This document shows positions 6,882-19,143 of a DNA stretch of 64,000 nt, one piece after another. The translations under genes and the position numbers were made by a program. A model generated the notes under the pieces. That model saw nothing but the letters and a program-made list of their open reading frames with translations. It was not told the DNA's origin and did no database searches. Source of the stretch: Halobaculum limi (GTDB lineage: Archaea; Halobacteriota; Halobacteria; Halobacteriales; Haloferacaceae). How positions within the stretch are numbered: the stretch's first letter is position 1; each line of letters opens with the position of its first letter. The stretch is from NCBI RefSeq assembly GCF_029490015.1, contig NZ_CP120468.1, positions 1,302,001 to 1,366,000 on the forward strand. Reading direction: 5' to 3'.

Positions 6882-9800
6882 CTACGGAGAGATCAGTTCC
6901 GCCTCGCCATCGTCTTCCTCGTCTTCGCCGTTCTCTCCGTCTTCGCCATTCTCACCATCCTCCTCATCTTCGCCGTCTTCGCCGTCTTCGTCCTCTTCAC
7001 CATTCTCACTATCCTCGCCGTTCTCGCTGTTCTCGTCGTCTTCGCCGTCTTCGCCGTCTTCACCGTCTTCACCGTTCTCTCCATCTTCGCCGTTCTCGCC
7101 GTTCTCGCCCTCTTCGCCGTCTTCGCCGTTCTCGCCGTTCTCGCCCTCTTCGCCGTCTTCGCCGTTCTCGCCGTTCTCGCCCTCTTCGCCGTCTTCGCCG
7201 TTCTCGCCGTTCTCGCCCTCTTCGCCGTCTTCACCGTTCTCTCCATCTTCGCCATTCTCTCCGTCTTCACCGTTCTCTCCATCTTCGCCATTCTCTCCGT
7301 CTTCACCGTTCTCTCCATCTTCGCCATTCTCTCCGTCTTCACCATCCTCGCCGTCTTCGCCGTCTTCACCGTCTACTGAGACGGCGCACGCCACAACTAC
7401 GTCCTCGCTGCTGACTTCGCTCACTCCTTCATCGTCGGTGGTCAGGGTACGGACGGTGTAGGTGCCGTTTTGTAGGCTATCCAGTTGGAGTTCCTCACCT
7501 GGCTGAAGCGTGGCGCGTCGTTCCGTCTCACCCGGACCTTCCACGTCAACCTGCACTGCCACGTCGTTCGTGTTCGTCGCAACCAGGACGCCACCATCTT
7601 CAGCGCAGGTGACAGCCGTCTCGACCGGCAAGACTTCCTCTGCGTCGCCGTCGCCGGGTTCGTCGACATCCGGCTCACACTCGATTTCGACAGTGGTATT
7701 CCCGACTACCCGGACGTTCTCGTCTTCTGCGGTCAGTGTGCGGACGGTGTACGTCCCGTTTTCCAGTCCGTCAAGTCGGAGTTCGTCGCCGGGTTCCAGG
7801 GTTTCGCGGCGTTCGGTGTCGCCCGGTCCTTCCACGTCGACTTGCACCGCCACGTCGTTCTGGTTCGTCGCGACGAGTACGCCACCATCGTCTTCACAGG
7901 TGACGTTCGTCTCCACAAGTTCGATGTCGGGTTCGTCACCGTCGACGGGCGGGCAATCGACGGTGAGTCGTTCGCGGCCGACCTGTCGCGAGTCGTCGCC
8001 GTCGTCGGTTAGCGTCCGTACTGTGTACGACCCGTTCTCTAGCCCTGTGAGCTCTCGCGTGTCGTTCTCTTCTCCTGCGGGGTCCAGCGAGACGTTCCGT
8101 TCGAAGTCGTTCGGTCCGTCGACGACGACCCGGACGGAGTCGTTGTTCGGGTTCGCGAGTCGCAGGGTCGCGCCGTCGTCGGTACAGGTGACGTTCGTCT
8201 CGACGAGGTCGAAGACCGGTTCTCCATCGTCAGGTTCCTCGCAGTCGACGGTGACTCGCTCGCGACCGATCGATTCGCTGTCGTCACCGGTGGTTCGGGT
8301 TCGGACGGTGTACGCTCCGTTATCGAGTCCAGAAAGTCGAAGGGTGTCGTCATCGCCTTCGGCGTCGAGGGTCGCCCGACGCTCGTAACCATCGGGTCCG
8401 GTCACGATGACGCGAACGGCTTCGTCGTTAGGGTTTTCTAGCACGATGCGGCCGCCGTCGGCGGTACACCGAACCTCGATCGAGACTCGTCTCAGGTCTT
8501 CGTCCTTGTCCTCGTCGCGGTCTCTGTCTCGGTCTTTGTCTCGGTCCTTATCGCGGTCTTTGTCCCGGTCCCTGTCATCGTCCTTCTCGGTCTGTTCGTC
8601 CACACAGTCGCCGTGGACCACGTACGCTGCACCGCCAGGATCTGCACGAGGGGCGCCGACCACTACGTCGTCTGCGTCGCCGCCGCCCACGTCACCCACT
8701 CCTGCGACCGACCATCCTGCCTCGTCGCCCGGACTCTCACCGTGAAGCGTCGCGTCGGCGTCATCGAGGTTCGTCGACCCTCGGCGCACCTCGCCGTCGA
8801 TCAGGTAGACTGCGCCGCTGTCATTGCCCGCTACCGAGTCGGCTCGTGGCGCACCGACGAGGATGTCGGCCACGTCACCGCAACGCGCGCCGACCGTCGC
8901 GAGGGCGTAGCCAGCGAGGTCGCCCGCGCCCGCCCCGTACAGCCGTCGGTCGGCGTCGGCGAGACTTCCGGATTCGAGGTCGCCGCCGAAGACGACGTAC
9001 GCCGCCCCAGCGTTCTGCCCAGTCACGTCCGCGAAGGGTGCGCCGATCACGAGGTCGTCGACGCCGTCACCGTTCACGTCTGCGCCGCCTGCGAGCGCGG
9101 ACCCGGCCCGGTCCCGCGATTCGGCGCCGTCGAGGCGTACGTCGGCCGTGTCGAGGCTTCGGGTGCCACCCGAGAACACGTTCGAGAGGACGTACACCGC
9201 GCCGTCATTCGTGGCGTTGGCCCGGTCTGCGTCGGCCCCAGGTGCACCGACGCCAACTTCTTCGCGTCCGTCATCGTCGACGTCGCCGACGCCTGTGACG
9301 GCCAGTCCGGCGGCGTCGTTGTCGTCCTCGCCGAGGAACGTGCTGTCGGCGTCGGCAAGCGACCGTTCCCCGGTGAAGCCGTCACGAAGGTCAACGACGT
9401 ATACCGCCCCAGAGGAGTTACCAGCTGACGTGTCGGCCGCTCGTGCGCCGACAAGGACTGCGCCACCGTCGTCATAATCGCGGTCGTCAAGTTCGCCAGC
9501 GCGCACGATGCCCACTGCGTTTCCAGCGCGATCATTCGCGGACACGCCCTCAAGGCGAACGTCGGCCGCCGCGGTGACCGAGCGCTTCCCTGATAGCGAC
9601 GGCCCGCCGTAAACGACGTACGTCGCTCCAGAGTTGTTGGCCGCGGCGTCGTCGCCTGGCACACCGATCACGAGGTCGCTGTACCCATCACCGTCGACGT
9701 CACCGCCTGCGAGCGACGACCCCGCGCGGTCTCGCGCGTCGACGCCGTAGAAGACGGCATCAGCGTCAGCCGCCTCTACGTCGCCACGGTCAACCGGCCC

Positions 9801-10199
9801 GTAGAAGAGGTACACTGCACCGGCGTTCTCGCCGCGTGAGTCGTTGCGCGGCGCGCCGACGAGGAGATCAGCGTCGCCGTCGCCGTTCACGTCGCCCACG
9901 CGTGCGACCGACCGCCCGAGTCGGTCGCCGTCGCCCTCACCGCCGACTTTGGTGTCCGCGTCGCTGAGGTTCGTTCGTCCGCTCACGATGCCACGTCGAT
10001 CGGGTGTGGCTGAGTCGCCGTCGGCCGGCCCAATCGTGGGCGCGTTCGCCGTCGTCGGTCCCGTCGCCGTTGTGGTCGTCGCTGCGGGCTGCTGACTGGA
10101 CGCGGCACCGACGGAGACTGCCACTCCCGCAATCGGTGCCAGCACCATCAACAGCACCACAGCTACGACGGTCGCCGTCGCACTGTCACTTCGCACCAT
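6882..10199 (-). CDS. Secreted FG-GAP beta-propeller protein with four Cys-containing repeats and GED/GEN tail
   Basis: About 1105 residues from the ATG at 10199 (a TTG frame extends to 10220). The N-terminus has a hydrophobic segment at residues 10-32. Residues about 75-530 hold seven FG-GAP blades (GDVNGDGDADLLVGAPRND, GGDVDGDGYSDLVIGVPGDD, GGADVNGDGVDDLVIGAPF and others), again a complete propeller. An Arg/Asp/Lys repeat linker lies near 536-566. Four tandem repeats of about 90-95 residues follow (about 570-935), each with a VTC-like strand, a central GPxxxERxxxL segment and NGxYTVRT, and a second Cys near the end, perhaps an Ig-like fold closed by a disulfide. The last roughly 155 residues are GED/GEEGEN repeats ending in AELISP. 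Expected to be exported; function unknown. It is a paralogue of the gene at 1611-6566. Confidence 0.85.
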   Translation of the reverse strand: MVRSDSATATVVAVVLLMVLAPIAGVAVSVGAASSQQPAATTTTATGPTTANAPTIGPADGDSATPDRRGIVSGRTNLSDADTKVGGEGDGDRLGRSVARVGDVNGDGDADLLVGAPRNDSRGENAGAVYLFYGPVDRGDVEAADADAVFYGVDARDRAGSSLAGGDVDGDGYSDLVIGVPGDDAAANNSGATYVVYGGPSLSGKRSVTAAADVRLEGVSANDRAGNAVGIVRAGELDDRDYDDGGAVLVGARAADTSAGNSSGAVYVVDLRDGFTGERSLADADSTFLGEDDNDAAGLAVTGVGDVDDDGREEVGVGAPGADADRANATNDGAVYVLSNVFSGGTRSLDTADVRLDGAESRDRAGSALAGGADVNGDGVDDLVIGAPFADVTGQNAGAAYVVFGGDLESGSLADADRRLYGAGAGDLAGYALATVGARCGDVADILVGAPRADSVAGNDSGAVYLIDGEVRRGSTNLDDADATLHGESPGDEAGWSVAGVGDVGGGDADDVVVGAPRADPGGAAYVVHGDCVDEQTEKDDDRDRDKDRDKDRDKDRDRDRDEDKDEDLRRVSIEVRCTADGGRIVLENPNDEAVRVIVTGPDGYERRATLDAEGDDDTLRLSGLDNGAYTVRTRTTGDDSESIGRERVTVDCEEPDDGEPVFDLVETNVTCTDDGATLRLANPNNDSVRVVVDGPNDFERNVSLDPAGEENDTRELTGLENGSYTVRTLTDDGDDSRQVGRERLTVDCPPVDGDEPDIELVETNVTCEDDGGVLVATNQNDVAVQVDVEGPGDTERRETLEPGDELRLDGLENGTYTVRTLTAEDENVRVVGNTTVEIECEPDVDEPGDGDAEEVLPVETAVTCAEDGGVLVATNTNDVAVQVDVEGPGETERRATLQPGEELQLDSLQNGTYTVRTLTTDDEGVSEVSSEDVVVACAVSVDGEDGEDGEDGEDGENGEDGENGEDGENGEDGENGEDGENGEDGENGEDGEEGENGENGEDGEEGENGENGEDGEEGENGENGEDGEEGENGENGEDGENGEDGEDGEDGEDDENSENGEDSENGEEDEDGEDGEDEEDGENGEDGENGEDEEDDGEAELISP
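6990..7378 (+). repeat. GED/GEN-encoding tandem repeats
   Basis: The stretch consists of 18-bp and 36-bp repeats built from tcgccgtct, ccgttctcg and ccctcttcg blocks. They encode (minus strand) GENGED, GEDGED and four copies of a GEDGEEGENGEN unit. All units are multiples of three. The resulting acidic tail is about 130 residues of only Gly, Glu, Asp and Asn. Confidence 0.85.
7380..8500 (-). repeat. Four tandem protein repeats (about 90-95 aa each) within the second propeller gene
   Basis: Four homologous units of roughly 285 nt can be aligned by eye through ETNVTC (or VRC), DDGG, a GPxxxERR segment, LENGTYTVRTLT and a final Cys. Copies three and four are the most similar (VLVATNxNDVAVQVDVEGPG in both). 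The order of similarity suggests successive duplication. I do not recognise a named domain. Confidence 0.75.
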
Positions 10200-10226
10200 A
10201 TCCACTGGGCACGCTCTCAACTGTTC

Positions 10227-12220: not shown

Positions 12221-12826
12221 TCAGCGAGCAGTCGGTGGCTCCGTGTTGGCGCCAAGCCGGTTCCGTCGCGAGCGAGCAAGGTGAACGACGCTGGTCAGTG
12301 TGAACATACCGACGATGAGTGCGGCGTACGCGGCATCGCCGCCGATTGAAAAGGGGTAGATATCAAGCCACGCAACCGTGATGAGTGCTGCTGCGAACGC
12401 CGATAGCCCGAGATAGAATTCGCTCCAGGGGATGTCGTTGCCTTGTACGACGTCCATATACACCTGGAGATTCTCTCCAATTTCGGTCAACTCGATCTCA
12501 TCACGGGTTGACTCGTAGCTCAATACGCCAGCATCGTCAAGACGTGGGAGGTGCGTCTGGTGGAGTGCGACGTACGCCCGCCGACGCTGGCTGGAGTCGA
12601 CCTCCTTGAGGTCGATATTGTTCTCCCACGCGGCGACGTGTTCTGCGAGTTCGCTAATCTCGGCGCTCTTTGCCCGCATCAGATGGTGGAGTGTGTACCG
12701 CCGCCGATCGTTACCGAGCAGCTCGAACACCTCCGTCCGGTCCAACTCCCCGGGTCCGTCGTCATCGGGGCTGAACGGTCCATCTGGCCCGACGTCACCC
12801 CCCGTATCACCCGATTGTGTTGACAC
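12221..12826 (-). CDS. DUF7344-type winged-helix regulator with C-terminal membrane anchor
   Basis: 201 residues. An acidic, Gly/Pro-rich N-terminus (1-28) is followed by a wHTH domain (about 29-120: EVFELLGNDRRRYTLHHLM, then ISELAEHVAAWEN, RRRAYVALHQTHLPRLDDAG and GVLSYE), the arrangement of the haloarchaeal DUF7344 family. Two hydrophobic segments at about 138-157 and 162-183 should tether it to the membrane. It is divergent from the TasA-like cluster across a 356-bp AT-rich region, so it is a candidate regulator of that cluster. The function is inferred from context. Confidence 0.75.
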   Translation of the reverse strand: MSTQSGDTGGDVGPDGPFSPDDDGPGELDRTEVFELLGNDRRRYTLHHLMRAKSAEISELAEHVAAWENNIDLKEVDSSQRRRAYVALHQTHLPRLDDAGVLSYESTRDEIELTEIGENLQVYMDVVQGNDIPWSEFYLGLSAFAAALITVAWLDIYPFSIGGDAAYAALIVGMFTLTSVVHLARSRRNRLGANTEPPTAR

Positions 12827-13080
12827 TAATAACAGTTCATTTGTCAGATACTTAGATATTTGGCTCGGTTCCCAGCAGTTTCATATTATTTTAGATACAC
12901 AACAACTCGAATATTGTAGCGTGCGCACAAACGCGAATCAGGATCATTCGGATAACTCGCCGTTACCTTCCCTCCGTACGGAATCAACTGGCGATATTTC
13001 GATTCTTTTAGATCGTGTCTAGAGCGGCTAAGACGCCGTGTAGGGGTCACTATACAAGGTGTATGTATTATGGTACAATG

Positions 13081-13100
13081 CTGTAGGCCAGTCGCTACAG
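13081..13100. promoter_or_regulatory. Inverted repeat CTGTAG-8nt-CTACAG
   Basis: Perfect 6-bp arms with an 8-nt spacer, 16 nt upstream of the TATA-like box that should serve the first TasA-like gene. The position fits an activator or repressor site. Confidence 0.45.
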
Positions 13101-13115
13101 ACCTGTATGCAGCAC

Positions 13116-13122
13116 ATAAATA
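13116..13122 (+). promoter_or_regulatory. TATA-like box of the TasA-like cluster
   Basis: ATAAATA lies 61-67 nt upstream of the ATG at 13183. A start site about 25 nt downstream would give a 5' UTR of roughly 35-40 nt containing the direct repeat GCGCGGTGTG. Genes nearby are mostly leaderless, so this would be a comparatively long leader. Confidence 0.45.
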
Positions 13123-13182
13123 CTACCCCCCAGTTCGTTGCCAATTGTGTGCGCGGTGTGGTTCCGCGCGGTGTGCAAACCT

Positions 13183-14373
13183 ATGTCCGACGACGACAAA
13201 AACAGCGGCTCGACGATCGAACTGAATCGCCGCCGGGTGCTCGGCGCGCTCGGCACTGTCGGTGTGGCCTCCGCGGGTGCGGGTGCGGGGACGTTCGCAC
13301 TCTTCAGCGACACCGAGACGAGTAGCGGGAACAGCGTGCAGGCAGGGACGCTCGATCTGACACTCGGCAATGGTGGGAGTGCGACGCTCACGGCTTCCGA
13401 GGTTGCCCCCGGAGATTCTGGAGTCAGCGCGCTTCAGGTGAATAACGACGGGAATCTCGATGGTTCGCTTGACGTGAACGTCTCGAACGTCACCCCTATC
13501 GACCGGAATCCGGAGCCGGAGCAGTCGCTGGACGACACTCGTGAGTTCACGATCGATTACGGGTTCGACAACGGGAGCCCCCAGAATCAGGTCTCACTTC
13601 AGTCGGAGTTCGGCGAGGTCGCTAATGTCGAGATCGATCTGAGTTCGGATCCAGTAGTGATCACCGCAGATCTGCCGTACGCGCTGGACCCGAACGGTCA
13701 GTTCGACGACTCGATCACGTTCGCGTTCGACGCAGACAACGACGGTGTCGAGGACTTCCAACTAGCGGCTCGGGACTACGACGACGACGACAGCTTGGAG
13801 ACGGTTTACGACGACGCAAGCAGTCTGCCGTCCGGCTCTCGGAACCGGAATCAGTCAGTACCGTCCGGCTACGACGTCCGTCTAGAGAACGGCAACACTC
13901 GGTTCGTCGTTGAGGTGCCCGCTGGGGACCTCTCGGATCCGTTCGCGGTCACGGGGCAGGCGAACCTCGCGGCTTACAACCCCTCCACTTCGGGGTCCAA
14001 CCTCGATATCCCGCTTATCCCCGGATTCGGGTACAACAATCCGCCGGTCGCCGGGACGAGTGCGTTCGACGGCACCGCGACGAAAATGGTCGAGATCCAG
14101 TCCGGCGAACTTCGGACGCTCGCGGATATGCTCGACCTGACAGTGACGATCAGTTCCGACAGTTCCCAGAGTTCGGGGGACACCTTTGTCGCCTCCGGCA
14201 AGGTCAATCGGCTCCCAATGGTCGATGCCGAGCCGAACAAGCCGCTCCCCGCGGGCGCGACGAACTACGTCCTTGTGGAGTACGATCTGTCCCCGAACGT
14301 CGGAAACGCGGTCCAGAAGGACGCCGTGGAGTTCGACATCGAAGTCGATCTCAACCAGGAGGACTCGCAGTAA
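13183..14373 (+). CDS. TasA/SipW-type secreted fibre-like subunit 1
   Basis: 396 residues from the ATG at 13183 (an upstream in-frame ATG at 13138 adds an implausible leader). The N-terminus has NRRRVLGALGTVGVASAG, then GAGTFALFSDTETSSGNSVQ and AGTLDLTL: the SipW-cognate signal peptide and the start of the camelysin/TasA fold, with cleavage expected before the AGTFALFSDTE region. The mature part is beta-rich and acidic, with a large insertion (about 95-290) compared with the shortest family members, and ends in VQKDAVEFDIEVDLNQEDSQ. In bacteria, TasA-type proteins polymerise into extracellular fibres after cleavage by SipW. It is the first gene of the cluster, with the next gene 19 nt downstream. 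Confidence 0.85.
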   Translation: MSDDDKNSGSTIELNRRRVLGALGTVGVASAGAGAGTFALFSDTETSSGNSVQAGTLDLTLGNGGSATLTASEVAPGDSGVSALQVNNDGNLDGSLDVNVSNVTPIDRNPEPEQSLDDTREFTIDYGFDNGSPQNQVSLQSEFGEVANVEIDLSSDPVVITADLPYALDPNGQFDDSITFAFDADNDGVEDFQLAARDYDDDDSLETVYDDASSLPSGSRNRNQSVPSGYDVRLENGNTRFVVEVPAGDLSDPFAVTGQANLAAYNPSTSGSNLDIPLIPGFGYNNPPVAGTSAFDGTATKMVEIQSGELRTLADMLDLTVTISSDSSQSSGDTFVASGKVNRLPMVDAEPNKPLPAGATNYVLVEYDLSPNVGNAVQKDAVEFDIEVDLNQEDSQ

Positions 14374-14392
14374 CCCCACCGAGTGACCACCG

Positions 14393-15562
14393 ATGCGCGA
14401 TGACACCAGTAGCTCGTTCGAGCTCTCCCGCCGCGGAGTGCTCGGCGGCCTCGTGACGATGGGCGCGGCATCGGCAGCCGCGGGTGCGGGCACGGTGGCG
14501 CTATTCAGCGACGAGGAGACCAGCGCGAACAACACGGTGCAGGCGGGCACGCTTGACCTGACGGTGAACGGGAGCGGATCGAATGCCGTCATCGATGTGT
14601 CGAACGTCGTCCCGGAGGGGAGCGGAAGCGACTCAACGACGCTTCGCAACGCCGGCACGCTCCCGGGGTACCTGACGTTCGGGATCAAAGGGTTCCGAAC
14701 ACCGGAGAACGGGGTCAACGACCCCGAGAGTGATGCCGACGACGAAGGAGATTCGTTTGGTCAGAATTCTGGCGGGTCACACACGGGCGAATTGGCCCAG
14801 AACCTCGAACTCCGGGTCAAGCTCGTAGTCGACGGGAACGACGAGTACCTGATCGGCCATCAGCCGGTGAATGGCGACGATGGCTACGTACTCGCGTCCG
14901 CGATTACGCTCGGCTCGTACGACCTTGGCAACTTGCAACTGTCGTCGGGCCAGTCTGTCGAATTCGTAACCGACTACCGTGTGTACAACGCGGGAAACGA
15001 GATTCAAAGCGACAGCGTCGAGATCGAGGCCGCGTTCGCGCTGACCCAAGAGGCCGGGCAAGTCACGCTCCCACAGACACAGACGGTGTCTGCGGACGCA
15101 GTCGGTCACCAAGACGACGATTACGACGCCGGCATCGAGTTCGACTACACCAACTCGCTGGGGCAAGAAGCGACGATCAACGATATCCACGTTCAACCGG
15201 CAGACACCGACTTGATCCTCCTCAGTGACCAGCGGGGTGGCACGAACTATGACGAATTTAGCTACAATTCTGACGTCCACGTGGAGACTCCGAGTGGTGA
15301 CAACGACGGCTGGGTTGATGGTGACGGCGACAAGTTCGACGTGCCTGGCTGGGTTGATCTCGGGTCCGATGGATGGAACGACAGTGCCGATCAGGAAGCG
15401 GTTCTATCAGCGGGAAGCACAGCGACGGTGAACCTCTATGCGTTCCGTAACCAGAGTGGGAATAAAGAGGATATGACGGGCAAGCAGGTCCGCGTCACGC
15501 TAGACGTGACGCTCGCCGACGGCACCGAAACGTTCGTCCCGCTCGTGATGACGCCGGTCTGA
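14393..15562 (+). CDS. TasA/SipW-type secreted fibre-like subunit 2
   Basis: 389 residues. The N-terminus FELSRRGVLGGLVTMGAAS is followed by AGAGTVALFSDEETSANN and VQAGTLDLTVNGSGSN, the same SipW-type signal and mature start as subunit 1. A TasA-like core (VVPEGSGSDSTTLRNAGTL, then a block resembling LELRVKLVVDGNDEYLIG and SVEIEAAFALTQ) occupies residues about 35-215. A second beta-rich region (about 220-389) begins VTLPQTQTVSADAVGHQDDD and ends in VRVTLDVTLADGTETF. Expected to be exported and cleaved by the signal peptidase encoded downstream. Confidence 0.85.
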   Translation: MRDDTSSSFELSRRGVLGGLVTMGAASAAAGAGTVALFSDEETSANNTVQAGTLDLTVNGSGSNAVIDVSNVVPEGSGSDSTTLRNAGTLPGYLTFGIKGFRTPENGVNDPESDADDEGDSFGQNSGGSHTGELAQNLELRVKLVVDGNDEYLIGHQPVNGDDGYVLASAITLGSYDLGNLQLSSGQSVEFVTDYRVYNAGNEIQSDSVEIEAAFALTQEAGQVTLPQTQTVSADAVGHQDDDYDAGIEFDYTNSLGQEATINDIHVQPADTDLILLSDQRGGTNYDEFSYNSDVHVETPSGDNDGWVDGDGDKFDVPGWVDLGSDGWNDSADQEAVLSAGSTATVNLYAFRNQSGNKEDMTGKQVRVTLDVTLADGTETFVPLVMTPV

Positions 15563-15578
15563 CCCGCGGCACGGCTAC

Positions 15579-15626
15579 GACCCACGCGGGCGCCTTGCGG
15601 CGGTTCGACTCCGCCGGTGGGTCTTT
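15579..15626 (+). other. tRNA-minihelix-like stem-loop between TasA-like genes
   Basis: GACCCAC (15579-15585) can pair with GTGGGTC (15617-15623), a 7-bp stem like an acceptor stem. Immediately inside the 3' strand is GGCGG-TTCGACT-CCGCC (15599-15615), matching a tRNA T-arm with the loop consensus TTCRANY. Only 13 nt separate the two parts on the 5' side, so D and anticodon arms are absent and it is not a functional tRNA. TTT follows. It could be a tRNA remnant, a structured terminator or a processing signal. Confidence 0.5.
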
Positions 15627-15653
15627 CAAACGAAGACATATGTGGGACCTCTC

Positions 15654-15661
15654 GTAAATAT
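15654..15661 (+). promoter_or_regulatory. TATA-like box for subunit 3
   Basis: GTAAATAT lies 25-32 nt upstream of the ATG at 15686, the standard distance for a leaderless haloarchaeal transcript. It suggests that the third subunit gene also has its own promoter, downstream of the hairpin at 15579-15626. Confidence 0.55.
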
Positions 15662-15685
15662 CGGACAAGCAAAAGACACGAACTG

Positions 15686-16585
15686 ATGCAGGATCCTACC
15701 CGTTCGATTGGCCGTCGCCGCCTGCTGTCGAGTCTCGGCGTGATCGGCGCCACCAGCGCTGCGTCCGGCCTCGGCACGTGGGCACTTCTCTCAGACACAG
15801 AGCAAACTACTGGGAGCGTCACCACAGGGACGCTCGACCTCCGGGTGGGTGACGACGGCACGGCGACAATCGCGATCGAGGATGTCGAACCGGGCGACGC
15901 TGGCATCTCCACTGTCCCGGTATCGAACCACGGCACTGTCGCCGGCACGCTCGGCCTGACGGTTGTAGACGTTCGCCCGAACGATTCAGACGGCGACTCC
16001 AACCCAGATACGGACAAATCCGGTGGCCCCATCGCCGGGATCGAATTCAATGGGTGCGGTACTGCCGACGTAGAGTTCGCCGCTGATGCGGCGTTCCCGA
16101 TTTCCATTGAGGTGCACACACGAACCGGGGAAAGCAACACGTCGGTCGAGACGCGTACGATTGAGAAGTCGGACACAAAATCGAAGACTGGTGGACGACC
16201 GACGACCAAACTGAACGGGAACGGCGGCCTCGTCGCCGTCTCGATCGATGGTCAGACCTGGGCGAACCCGAACCCTTGTGTGAACGATGATGCCAGGAAC
16301 GACGCGGCGTCAGTTGCCCTCGCGAAGGCCCTGACAGTCGACATCGGCTACGCTGACGACAAGGCGGCGGCTGGGACCGCCCCGCTCGTTGAGGCGGACC
16401 CTGTATGGGACCTAGCGGTTCCCAAAACGGCAGAAAGCGACCGAACACTCTCTCCCGGGGGCGAAGACGACGCCCCGGGCTCGCACGCGGTGTTGTACGT
16501 CGAGTGGTCGGTGGATGCCGACTCGGAGGAGTCTATCGCAGATGGAACAGTTGAGATCGAATTGCAGCCAGTGATTCACACATGA
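15686..16585 (+). CDS. TasA/SipW-type secreted fibre-like subunit 3
   Basis: 299 residues from the ATG at 15686, chosen because it places the signal at the N-terminus and fits the TATA-like box. Signal RSIGRRRLLSSLGVIGATSA, then GLGTWALLSDTEQTTGSV and TGTLDLRVGDDG. The mature domain has DVEPGDAGISTVPVSNHGTV and a C-terminal strand VLYVEWSVDADSEESIADG, then VEIELQPVIHT, typical of the camelysin/TasA fold. It carries two Cys (about residues 123 and 202) that could form a disulfide. Expected to be cleaved by the adjacent signal peptidase. Confidence 0.83.
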   Translation: MQDPTRSIGRRRLLSSLGVIGATSAASGLGTWALLSDTEQTTGSVTTGTLDLRVGDDGTATIAIEDVEPGDAGISTVPVSNHGTVAGTLGLTVVDVRPNDSDGDSNPDTDKSGGPIAGIEFNGCGTADVEFAADAAFPISIEVHTRTGESNTSVETRTIEKSDTKSKTGGRPTTKLNGNGGLVAVSIDGQTWANPNPCVNDDARNDAASVALAKALTVDIGYADDKAAAGTAPLVEADPVWDLAVPKTAESDRTLSPGGEDDAPGSHAVLYVEWSVDADSEESIADGTVEIELQPVIHT

Positions 16586-16634
16586 CAGTGCACGCAGACG
16601 ACGAACGGACGGGCAGTGCGACGGGTGAGCAGCA

Positions 16635-17153
16635 ATGAAGACGCCGAAACCGCGAACGATTGGTGCAGTCGCTTTGGTCCTCGTACTCGTGCCGTTCGTC
16701 GTGTTCGCGGTGCCGCAGGTCGTGGGCGCAAGCCACTCGTACGTCGTTCTCTCTGACAGTATGTCGCCGGAGATCAATGCAGGTGACGTGGTCATCGTCG
16801 ATGACGCTCCTGTCGACACCATCGAGAGGGGTGATGTGATCACCTATGAGCGGCCCGGCGGCGATCAGCTCGTTACCCACAGAGTGATCGAAGTTCGTTC
16901 GGACGGCGACAGCACGTCGTATCGTACCAAAGGCGACGCCAACGAGGACCCAGATCCCACACCCATTCCTGCGAGTAACGTGATCGGCGTCGTCGCATTC
17001 CATATCCCGTTGATCGGACACGTGATCTCTTTCGGTGGCTCTGATCTCGGCATCGTCGTGTTCATCATCATCCCGGCGGTCGGTCTCGCCGTCGGAGAGG
17101 TGTACGATCTCTATCAAGAAGCGACGACCGACGGCGACGGGGGTAATGGGTGA
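16635..17153 (+). CDS. SipW-like signal peptidase I (S26 family)
   Basis: 172 residues with an N-terminal TM helix (about 9-31), the catalytic Ser in SDSMSPEINAGDVVIV (Ser42), the conserved His in LVTHRVIEV (His82) and Asp in RTKGDANEDPDP (Asp101), the Ser-His-Asp arrangement of archaeal/ER-type and SipW signal peptidases. A second TM helix lies near 138-157. Its place inside a cluster of SipW-type precursors makes it the probable dedicated peptidase that matures them. Its stop overlaps the start of the next gene by one base (TGATG). Confidence 0.88.
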   Translation: MKTPKPRTIGAVALVLVLVPFVVFAVPQVVGASHSYVVLSDSMSPEINAGDVVIVDDAPVDTIERGDVITYERPGGDQLVTHRVIEVRSDGDSTSYRTKGDANEDPDPTPIPASNVIGVVAFHIPLIGHVISFGGSDLGIVVFIIIPAVGLAVGEVYDLYQEATTDGDGGNG

Positions 17154-17461
17154 TGTCCGGCGGCTCACTACGAACGGTCGCCGCGGTGACGCTCCTAGTC
17201 GCGGCGGCGGTATTCGTGGGTGTCACTGGCGATATGCGCACTGACGCGGCACTCTCGGACAGCGAGCGTGTCGACGTCTCGGTTGGTGCTGCCGAGGCGT
17301 CGCCAGACAACGGGTCCGGAGACGGGTCGACCCTCGACAACACGTCGACACCGATTCCGAATTCTACTTCGACGGCCACCCCGACCTCAACGCCCACCTC
17401 CACGGCCACGACGAACCAGACGGCGACGACAAACACGACGACCGGAGGTGGCGGCGAGTGA
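17153..17461 (+). CDS. Small SipW-associated exported or anchored protein
   Basis: 102 residues from the ATG at 17153, overlapping the signal peptidase stop. A hydrophobic N-terminal segment (about 7-25) is followed by RTDAALSDSERVDVSVGAA, which resembles the AxFSDTE junction of SipW substrates, and then a Thr/Ser/Asn/Pro-rich tail to residue 102. The tail carries several N-x-S/T sequons and could be glycosylated. It may be a truncated TasA-like accessory protein, comparable in position to TapA; this is inference. It is coupled to the next gene by a GTGA overlap. Confidence 0.65.
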   Translation: MSGGSLRTVAAVTLLVAAAVFVGVTGDMRTDAALSDSERVDVSVGAAEASPDNGSGDGSTLDNTSTPIPNSTSTATPTSTPTSTATTNQTATTNTTTGGGGE

Positions 17462-18717
17462 TCGGCGATCTGCTTAGCGGCCTCACGGTGACCAAACAGA
17501 CGGTGCTCGTCGCTATCGTTGGCAGTGTCGTCCTCACTGGTGCCGGTCTCGGTGCACTCGGACCTGAGTTTGGACTGACGCAAGAAGGCGGTGAGAGTCA
17601 GACGACCGAATCCACGCTGACTGAGACTGCAACACCGACGCCGCCGCCTGTCTCGGTGACGCCGCCGTCGACGGACACTCAGCGGTCTACTGCTGTTGGT
17701 GGCGTGGATAGCACTCCCACGTCGACTCCCTCATCGACGACAACTACGCCGACACGGACACCAACCGTGGTAACGGAGGCTGCGGACGACGACAGAGACG
17801 ATGAGGATGGAGACGATTCTGTTCGGACGGAGCAACCGTTCGCCGACCCAACCCTCTCGCTGTCAGTTGCCGCTCCAGCGGATGTGTCAAACGACACGGG
17901 GGCGGTCGGCGCCATCGGTGGTGATGTGACCGCGCAGGCGTCGTGGACGGGTGACGCCGACAGCGTGGTGTTCGTCATCCGGGCCAGCCAACCTGACGGC
18001 ACGTGGCACGAACTTTCTCGCGAGGCGACAGTCGTCGGCGACGACACCGCTGTTGACCTCGCGGCCGCGGTCGAGAACACGTCGTACACCTACGTCGACG
18101 CCGAAAACTCCTCTGCACTGGATAACCCGACCAACGCGACGGTCGTCGCTCGCTCGGGTGCCGTCGCCGTCACAGCGGTGTTCTTCGACGACGGCGAACA
18201 GGTCGGGATGGTACAGCGCGTTCGCACGTACTCGTTCGATGTGACGAACACAGGCACTATCGATCTCGCGATTGACGAGCAGGACGCCCGTGGTCTATCT
18301 GTCGACGACGTCGCGCCTGGAAACACGGTTGAGCGCCGGCTTCGTGTCCGAAACGGTGCCGCCGCTGATGGGACGCTGCAGCTCACATTCACTAATCAGA
18401 CAGCAGCAGAGAACGGTCTCGCGGAGCCGGAAGTGGCCACTGATGATCCTGGGCGAGTCGAACTTCGTGACGCACTCGAACTCCGCATTTCGATCACTGA
18501 TGGCGACGGAGAGCGGACGTACATTGTCGGCGACACACAGCAGTTCGTCAGCTACGATATTATTGCCGACAGGCTTGGCTCGGTCCCGTTGTCGGGTAAC
18601 CGCACTCGAACAATTGTTGTCGAATGGCGTGTCCCCCGTGACGCCGACAACAGCATTATGACTGACTCGGTCAGCTTCGACGTGCAACTGACGCTGTTAA
18701 GCGACGGGCGCACGTAG
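17458..18717 (+). CDS. Membrane-anchored protein with Thr/Pro stalk and TasA-like C-terminal domain
   Basis: 419 residues from a GTG overlapping the previous stop (GTGA). One TM segment (about 15-35) is followed by a long Thr/Pro/Ser-rich, then acidic stalk (about 45-125), a beta-rich domain (about 130-250), and a C-terminal region (about 255-415) with SVDDVAPGNTVERRLRVRNG, a LELRISITDGDGERTYIVG block and VPRDADNSIMTDSVSFDVQL. These match the layout of the TasA-like subunits in this cluster. It lacks the RR-type SipW signal, so it probably stays anchored and could serve as the base or nucleator for the fibres. The role is inferred. Confidence 0.75.
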   Translation: MIGDLLSGLTVTKQTVLVAIVGSVVLTGAGLGALGPEFGLTQEGGESQTTESTLTETATPTPPPVSVTPPSTDTQRSTAVGGVDSTPTSTPSSTTTTPTRTPTVVTEAADDDRDDEDGDDSVRTEQPFADPTLSLSVAAPADVSNDTGAVGAIGGDVTAQASWTGDADSVVFVIRASQPDGTWHELSREATVVGDDTAVDLAAAVENTSYTYVDAENSSALDNPTNATVVARSGAVAVTAVFFDDGEQVGMVQRVRTYSFDVTNTGTIDLAIDEQDARGLSVDDVAPGNTVERRLRVRNGAAADGTLQLTFTNQTAAENGLAEPEVATDDPGRVELRDALELRISITDGDGERTYIVGDTQQFVSYDIIADRLGSVPLSGNRTRTIVVEWRVPRDADNSIMTDSVSFDVQLTLLSDGRT

Positions 18718-18741
18718 TTGGATGCCGCGTCTCCGGTCGAT

Positions 18742-19143
18742 TCAACCGATCAACAGCCGGATGTTCAACGCCGTCGTGAATGCGCCGACGAATGACAACA
18801 CCACTGGTGGGAGGTAATAGCCAAGGCGATCGCCCGCACGGGCGCTGGAGAGGCTGATTGCGAGACATACGCCGAACACTGCTAACTTCACGGCGATCAG
18901 CCCAGCTTCGCCGTACCCGCCGACCGCGGCGGCAATCAGTGCGTTCGCCTCGTTTACCGTATTGGAGTAGCCGATGAGCGCGAGCGTGGTTACGACGTCG
19001 CCGACGCCATACGTTAGGGTCGCAACGAACCACAGCCGCGAGAACTCGACGACGCCGAAGGGTGTTTCCGACAGCGAGAACCAGCTGGTGAGGCCGGTCA
19101 CATCAGCACCACCTTCTGTCTCGCTTCCGGCGTCTCCAGTCAT
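18742..19143 (-). CDS. Four-TM membrane protein (DUF5658-like)
   Basis: 133 residues with about four hydrophobic helices (around 35-58, 64-82, 84-102 and 110-131). The sequence TYGVGDVVTTLALIGYSNTV followed by NEANALIAAA resembles the D...T..E.N motif seen in DUF5658-type proteins; that assignment is tentative. It is convergent with the TasA-like cluster (24 bp between stops) and may or may not belong to it. Confidence 0.6.
   Translation of the reverse strand: MTGDAGSETEGGADVTGLTSWFSLSETPFGVVEFSRLWFVATLTYGVGDVVTTLALIGYSNTVNEANALIAAAVGGYGEAGLIAVKLAVFGVCLAISLSSARAGDRLGYYLPPVVLSFVGAFTTALNIRLLIG

Follow-up and report, generated by a model that had tools for sequence, protein, structure and literature searches.

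A candidate TasA/SipW-type fibre cluster with variable subunit bodies in Halobaculum limi

Organization of the gene cluster

Halobaculum limi carries, at positions 12221 to 19143 of the stretch of DNA analyzed here (the window, 64,000 nucleotides; NZ_CP120468.1, positions 1,302,001 to 1,366,000, part of a 3.05 Mb contig in a genome of 3.48 Mb), a cluster of eight genes for secreted proteins related to TasA, a SipW-type signal peptidase, and further membrane proteins. An earlier note on this DNA had proposed a fibre assembly cluster with three secreted proteins bearing SipW-type signals, a signal peptidase of the Ser-His-Asp type, two coupled proteins (one small, the other membrane-anchored and ending in a TasA-like region), and a divergent membrane-tethered DUF7344 protein. 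Each of these components was recovered in the present analysis, and the family membership and the gene set of the cluster are established with very high confidence. On the plus strand, three large subunits A (13183 to 14373), B (14393 to 15562), and C (15686 to 16585) are followed by the signal peptidase (16635 to 17153), a small SipW-type protein (17153 to 17461), and the membrane anchor (17458 to 18717). The minus strand carries the DUF7344 gene (12221 to 12826) on one side and a gene for a small membrane protein (18742 to 19143) on the other.

The likely start of A is the ATG at 13183 and not the TTG at 13138. For C, the ATG at 15686 is preferred to the GTG at 15617, because C of Halobaculum litoreum starts at the same point. 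The small gene overlaps the peptidase gene by 1 nucleotide (TGATG, ATG at 17153) or by 4 nucleotides (GTG at 17150), and the anchor gene overlaps the small gene by 4 nucleotides (GTGA at 17458). Due to these overlaps, the peptidase, small, and anchor genes are probably translationally coupled.

Secreted subunits and their signal peptidase

All three subunits exceeded the curated cut-offs of the two relevant profiles, i.e. camelysin/M73 (Pfam PF12389; A 37.1, B 39.8, and C 35.2 bits, gathering score 22.5), to which B aligns at profile positions 11 to 194 of 196, and cognate_SipW (NCBIfam TIGR04088; 32.6, 27.3, and 26.9 bits, cut-off 19). The genome (3.48 Mb) contains no further cognate_SipW match, and the camelysin cut-off is likewise passed by these three genes alone. 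With the Bacillus TasA equivalog model NF046066, scores of 22.0 and 24.3 bits were obtained at a cut-off of 450; judged by sequence, proteins of the A/B/C type are relatives, not orthologues, of Bacillus TasA. Subunit A consists of an RR-type signal, a maturation site FA/LFSDTE (slash, predicted cleavage), a TasA-like core, and a large variable insert. B has a TasA-like domain at about amino acids 21 to 222 and an additional C-terminal domain, while C is a secreted SipW-type protein of the camelysin family. The motifs ahead of the hydrophobic stretch are RRRVL in A, RRGVL in B, and RRRLL in C, and of the 179 relatives in which a maturation motif could be recognised, 163 have an RRx-hydrophobic motif. 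Export of folded subunits by the twin-arginine translocation (Tat) pathway is therefore likely, although the Tat model itself stays below its cut-off (see below).

The peptidase has Ser42, His82, and Asp101 and matches the archaeal signal peptidase model sigpep_I_arch (TIGR02228) with 121 bits (4e-35; cut-off 51.85). It also matches Bacillus SipW (NF046067; 8.5e-30, 103.7 bits) below the equivalog cut-off of 190, more strongly than the model for bacterial signal peptidase I in general (5e-8); in the PDB it finds SEC11C (1.8e-8). From these profile scores, the enzyme is of the SipW kind, outside the orthologue group of Bacillus SipW. No other protein of the genome passes the sigpep_I_arch cut-off, below which two further S26-like genes remain; the enzyme is therefore probably dedicated to the cluster.

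The small protein consists of a signal, a donor-strand-like segment ALSDSERVDVSVGA, and a tail of 51% Thr and Ser with several N-glycosylation sequons; a folded body is missing. No match above cut-off was found in Pfam or NCBIfam. Its plan recurs in many compact clusters, in which a coupled SipW-type gene stands behind the peptidase gene (e.g. L061, L066, L112, and L116), and it appears to be a fourth substrate for the peptidase. In Bacillus subtilis, tapA overlaps sipW, and TapA starts TasA filaments, donates a strand, and cannot accept one (PMC10151520). The small protein resembles TapA in position and in its donor-like segment, while homology and the immunoglobulin-like (Ig) domain of TapA were not found.

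Predicted folds of subunit A and the membrane anchor

The comparison of predicted structures with TasA and AbpA, suggested in the earlier note, related subunit A and the end domain of the anchor to TasA, both having a TasA-type beta-sandwich fold. The AlphaFold 2 (AF2) model of subunit A, with the signal removed, reached a mean predicted local distance difference test (pLDDT) score of 57.8; block means were 77 to 89 in the core (residues 11 to 70 and 311 to 350), and the insert was poor. In a Foldseek search of the PDB with this core, the TasA fibre 8aur was the sole significant match (E 4.5e-4, probability 0.99), and a second structural search listed AbpA (7ueg, Z 7.8) and TasA (Z 6.7). Sequence searches of the PDB with A as profile and with B and C as single sequences gave chance matches only, mostly of Ig type.

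The anchor is composed of an N-terminal transmembrane (TM) segment, a Thr/Ser/Pro linker, an Ig-like domain, and a TasA-like domain. The AF2 model of its ectodomain has a pLDDT of 90, with the Ig-like domain at model residues 1 to 140 and the TasA-like domain at 145 to 295. The latter fits monomeric TasA (5of1) with Z 8.9 and a root-mean-square deviation (rmsd) of 2.9 over 129 residues, model residues 145 to 294 lying on TasA 45 to 235; Z was 8.8 for 5of2 and 8.5 over 139 residues for fibre TasA (8aur), at rmsd values of 2.9 to 3.4. By sequence, the anchor reaches the camelysin profile at E 0.012 and 15.9 bits, below the cut-off of 22.5, and a family profile led by the anchor found AbpX of Pyrodictium (4e-5) and, weakly, TasA in the PDB. 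The fit to TasA starts at TasA residue 44 to 45, past the donor strand at residues 28 to 38 (PMC9674648), so that the anchor is predicted to be without a free donor strand. RbmA was the top fold match of the anchor; homology was rejected because the rmsd over both domains was 24 to 25 Å, and the match is explained by two tandem Ig-like domains.

Flanking genes

The divergent protein belongs to the DUF7344 family (Pfam, 1.7e-27, 96 bits, cut-off 27.8). It combines a domain of cytoplasmic DNA-binding type with two C-terminal TM segments predicted from hydropathy (138 to 156 and 165 to 183), and it probably regulates the operon. The genome contains 20 DUF7344 matches. The small membrane protein on the other side has about 133 amino acids, about three TM segments, and no Pfam family. 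Its gene neighbors compact clusters and was present near the cluster in 18 of 80 loci; among four other Halobaculum genomes compared, it occurred in both with clusters and in neither of the two without. Outside the cluster, window positions 6882 to 10220 (minus strand) encode a secreted protein with FG-GAP/integrin-like repeats and a long tail of Gly-Glu-Asp-Gly-Glu-Asn repeats; H. litoreum has a related protein at the matching place.

Occurrence in Halobacteriales and beyond

Proteins matching cognate_SipW were detected in 116 of 293 sampled Halobacteriales genomes, including Haloferax volcanii among the named controls. From genomes of the order with such proteins, 80 clusters were fetched and analyzed with our gene calls and hidden Markov models; as these loci were picked for having subunits, only the rates of partner genes are informative. 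In 68 of the 80 clusters, a subunit gene has a same-strand peptidase gene within 3 kb. By chance, about 2% of 20-kb stretches would be expected to contain an S26 gene (3 such genes in 3.48 Mb), so the pairing is not due to chance, and the co-occurrence on which the earlier note had staked its reading was borne out. A divergent DUF7344 gene was found less than 900 bp upstream of a subunit gene in 53 of 80. The gene order sought elsewhere was also found: H. litoreum (NZ_CP126156) has all eight genes in identical order, with the same neighbors on the DUF7344 side.

Two layouts were observed. Compact clusters comprise one to three subunits, a peptidase of about 180 amino acids, a coupled small protein, and an anchor. 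Large clusters (L025 to L057, L083, and others) mostly have four to seven subunits and a peptidase of 300 to 400 amino acids, the C-terminal extension of which carries extra hydrophobic segments. Clusters are also present on haloarchaeal plasmids, namely pAArc1-02 (L196) and a Halorubrum megaplasmid (L197, H. ezzemoulense), which could help their spread; the large cluster L197 contains genes with von Willebrand factor A (vWA) domains. Loci outside the haloarchaea, found via the peptidase alone, have adjoining subunit-type genes in 34 of 39 cases (L149 to L186); their taxa include Dehalococcoidia, Patescibacteria, and other bacteria and archaea.

Variable subunit bodies at a variable site

The mosaic bodies of the subunits at a variable chromosomal site, absent from the earlier note, are the most interesting feature of the locus. 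The signal and donor segment of subunit A (residues 1 to 62, the head) is 90 to 93% identical to the syntenic A proteins of H. litoreum and genome G210, while the body (63 to 345) is 33% and 27% identical, respectively. This body shares 76% identity with A of cluster L059 from a genome of another family (G017), the peptidase, B, and anchor of which are 58%, 49%, and 37% identical to those of the window. In blastn comparisons, the shared stretch stops at 13358 to 13361 and, against H. litoreum, picks up again at 14349. B is the best conserved subunit with 80 to 81% identity in two other Halobaculum genomes, compared to 27 to 33% for the A bodies and 35 to 65% for C. Across 72 pairs of related clusters, which are not independent of each other, mean identity was 90% for heads, 60% for bodies, and 89% for the peptidase; in the pair L027/L057, single bodies were 89, 41, and 83% identical. 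The heads are short and constrained, and replacement of bodies is not fully separable from fast divergence; replacement is favored because of the mosaic pattern and the L059 match. On this basis, we consider an exchange of bodies by recombination reasonably probable.

The racemase-family gene that adjoins the cluster shows 94 to 98% identity across the five copies from other Halobaculum. Next to it, the window, H. litoreum, and G210 have compact TasA-like clusters and G158 a large one. G260 and G266 carry there a gene of the DUF7344 family together with a signal peptidase-like gene of another kind and other secreted Tat-type proteins, some of which belong, in G260, to the DUF1102 family. An initial reading of the site in these two genomes as empty was dropped, as it is occupied by another module. 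In these two genomes, which lack SipW-type subunits, the module occupies positions 9829 to 16020 of L193 (with DUF1102 family proteins) and 10264 to 15928 of L192, and it is perhaps a parallel peptidase-and-surface-protein module. The chromosomal site beside the racemase-family gene thus seems to hold exchangeable surface modules.

Proposed assembly and alternative explanations

The cluster probably builds a surface fibre of the TasA/AbpA type by donor-strand exchange. The three subunits would leave the cell folded via Tat, with their signal sequences keeping them in the membrane, until the peptidase cleaves after the conserved Ala (FA/LFSD...). Cleavage would release the N-terminal donor strand, which could then fill the groove of an adjacent TasA-like domain. 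The small protein, with a donor-strand-like segment but no body, would donate and be unable to accept, starting or capping the fibre in the manner of Bacillus TapA. Since its TasA-like domain is without a free donor strand, the anchor would accept and be unable to donate, and thereby tie the fibre to the membrane. This pairing of a donor-only cap and an acceptor-only base was proposed because of the TapA precedent and is tentative, being somewhat doubtful for both proteins. DUF7344 would control the operon. The conserved signal and donor segments would allow subunits with very different exposed bodies to co-polymerize, and the bodies would be swapped between strains. As a whole, this scheme of a fibre with Tat export, its own peptidase, cap, and anchor is the best explanation and, in our judgment, a fairly probable one; a role in biofilm formation or adhesion would be in line with it.

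Several points weigh against this scheme. The evidence for a fibre consists of gene content, conservation, and predicted folds of single chains. The Tat model TIGR01409 (TAT_signal) gave 11.8 and 13.1 bits, below its cut-off of 16.7. The model of subunit A is poor outside the core, and its Z values in the second search (6.7 to 7.8) are level with those of unrelated Ig and PapD folds. The small protein is very variable and has no sequence homology to TapA. In the open-access literature, no paper on SipW or TasA in haloarchaea, including Haloferax, was found; the statement of the earlier note that no such haloarchaeal system is known to have been characterized holds in this respect, but the gene set itself is not unusual, considering its frequency in the sampled genomes.

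Alternatively, the proteins may be SipW-processed surface or secreted adhesins that use the TasA fold singly and do not polymerize, the peptidase only releasing or maturing them. The large bodies with big inserts, the vWA-domain genes in the related megaplasmid cluster, and a fold match covering the TasA monomer as well as the fibre would fit such adhesins. A monomer would have no need, however, of the donor-strand/maturation segment, which is the most conserved part of the subunits and exactly the part that the anchor lacks. This distribution in single-chain predictions is consistent with donor-strand exchange, and the relatives with solved structures, TasA, AbpA, and AbpX, form donor-strand fibres (PMC11952670), which leaves non-polymerizing adhesins unlikely. 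Adhesive functions could also be accommodated within the fibre, with B forming the shaft and A and C serving as variable tip or decorating adhesins. The higher conservation of B compared to the A bodies and C speaks for this refinement and its extra C-terminal domain, atypical of a minimal shaft pilin, against it; we regard it as a serious possibility falling somewhat short of even chances. Camelysin-type metalloproteases secreted for nutrition were considered because of the Pfam family name Peptidase_M73. This reading was rejected as highly improbable, since the zinc-binding motif HExxH is absent from A, B, and C and since TasA and AbpX, the family members with solved structures, have structural roles.

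Comparison with known systems and significance

The tapA-sipW-tasA operon of B. subtilis shares with the cluster a SipW-type peptidase, substrates with TasA fold, a maturation/donor segment, and an accessory gene that overlaps the gene of the peptidase (PMC10151520). In contrast, the H. limi cluster encodes three distinct large subunits where B. subtilis has a single one, carries RR-type (Tat-like) signals, and adds a dedicated TM-anchored acceptor-like protein; its small accessory protein is not a TapA homologue, a divergent DUF7344 gene stands in place of SinR control, and the order is subunits-peptidase-accessory. Bacillus cereus, with sipW-calY1-bc_1280-calY2, also combines two or more camelysins with a SipW of their own (PMC10151520), but in a Gram-positive host, with small subunits, and with no such membrane anchor described. 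AbpA of Pyrobaculum calidifontis (7ueg) and AbpX of Pyrodictium abyssi (9sj2/9rhp) are likewise TasA-like archaeal subunits. These pilins of hyperthermophiles have about 160 to 180 residues, whereas the subunits here are large and multi-domain and are encoded in an operon with peptidase, small protein, and anchor; the comparison with the Abp systems rests on subunits and not on gene sets. Haloarchaeal genes automatically annotated in RefSeq as "SipW-dependent-type signal peptide-containing protein" belong to the same family and have no function assigned. One example, on the Natrarchaeobaculum plasmid pAArc1-02, adjoins a signal peptidase I gene; the example clusters are of the large type, with more subunits and peptidases of 300 to 400 amino acids. 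The TasA-type fibre is thus a known kind, the haloarchaeal form of which is new and apparently uncharacterized.

Type IV pili and archaella are the main surface filaments known from haloarchaea. The clusters suggest a second, unrelated class of haloarchaeal fibres in about 40% of the sampled Halobacteriales genomes, among them H. volcanii, in which genetic tests are possible. If donor-strand subunits are exported folded via Tat, no usher-type periplasmic chaperone would be needed and cleavage would be the trigger of assembly. A Tat-exported donor-strand pilus with donor-only cap and acceptor-only anchor, the bodies of which are swapped singly at a dedicated site, would be an archaeal counterpart of pilus antigenic variation; in this complete form, the idea is speculative and rather unlikely. 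Judging from the mosaic bodies of the subunits, surface identity may be under selection, a matter of relevance to virus attachment, mating, and biofilms.

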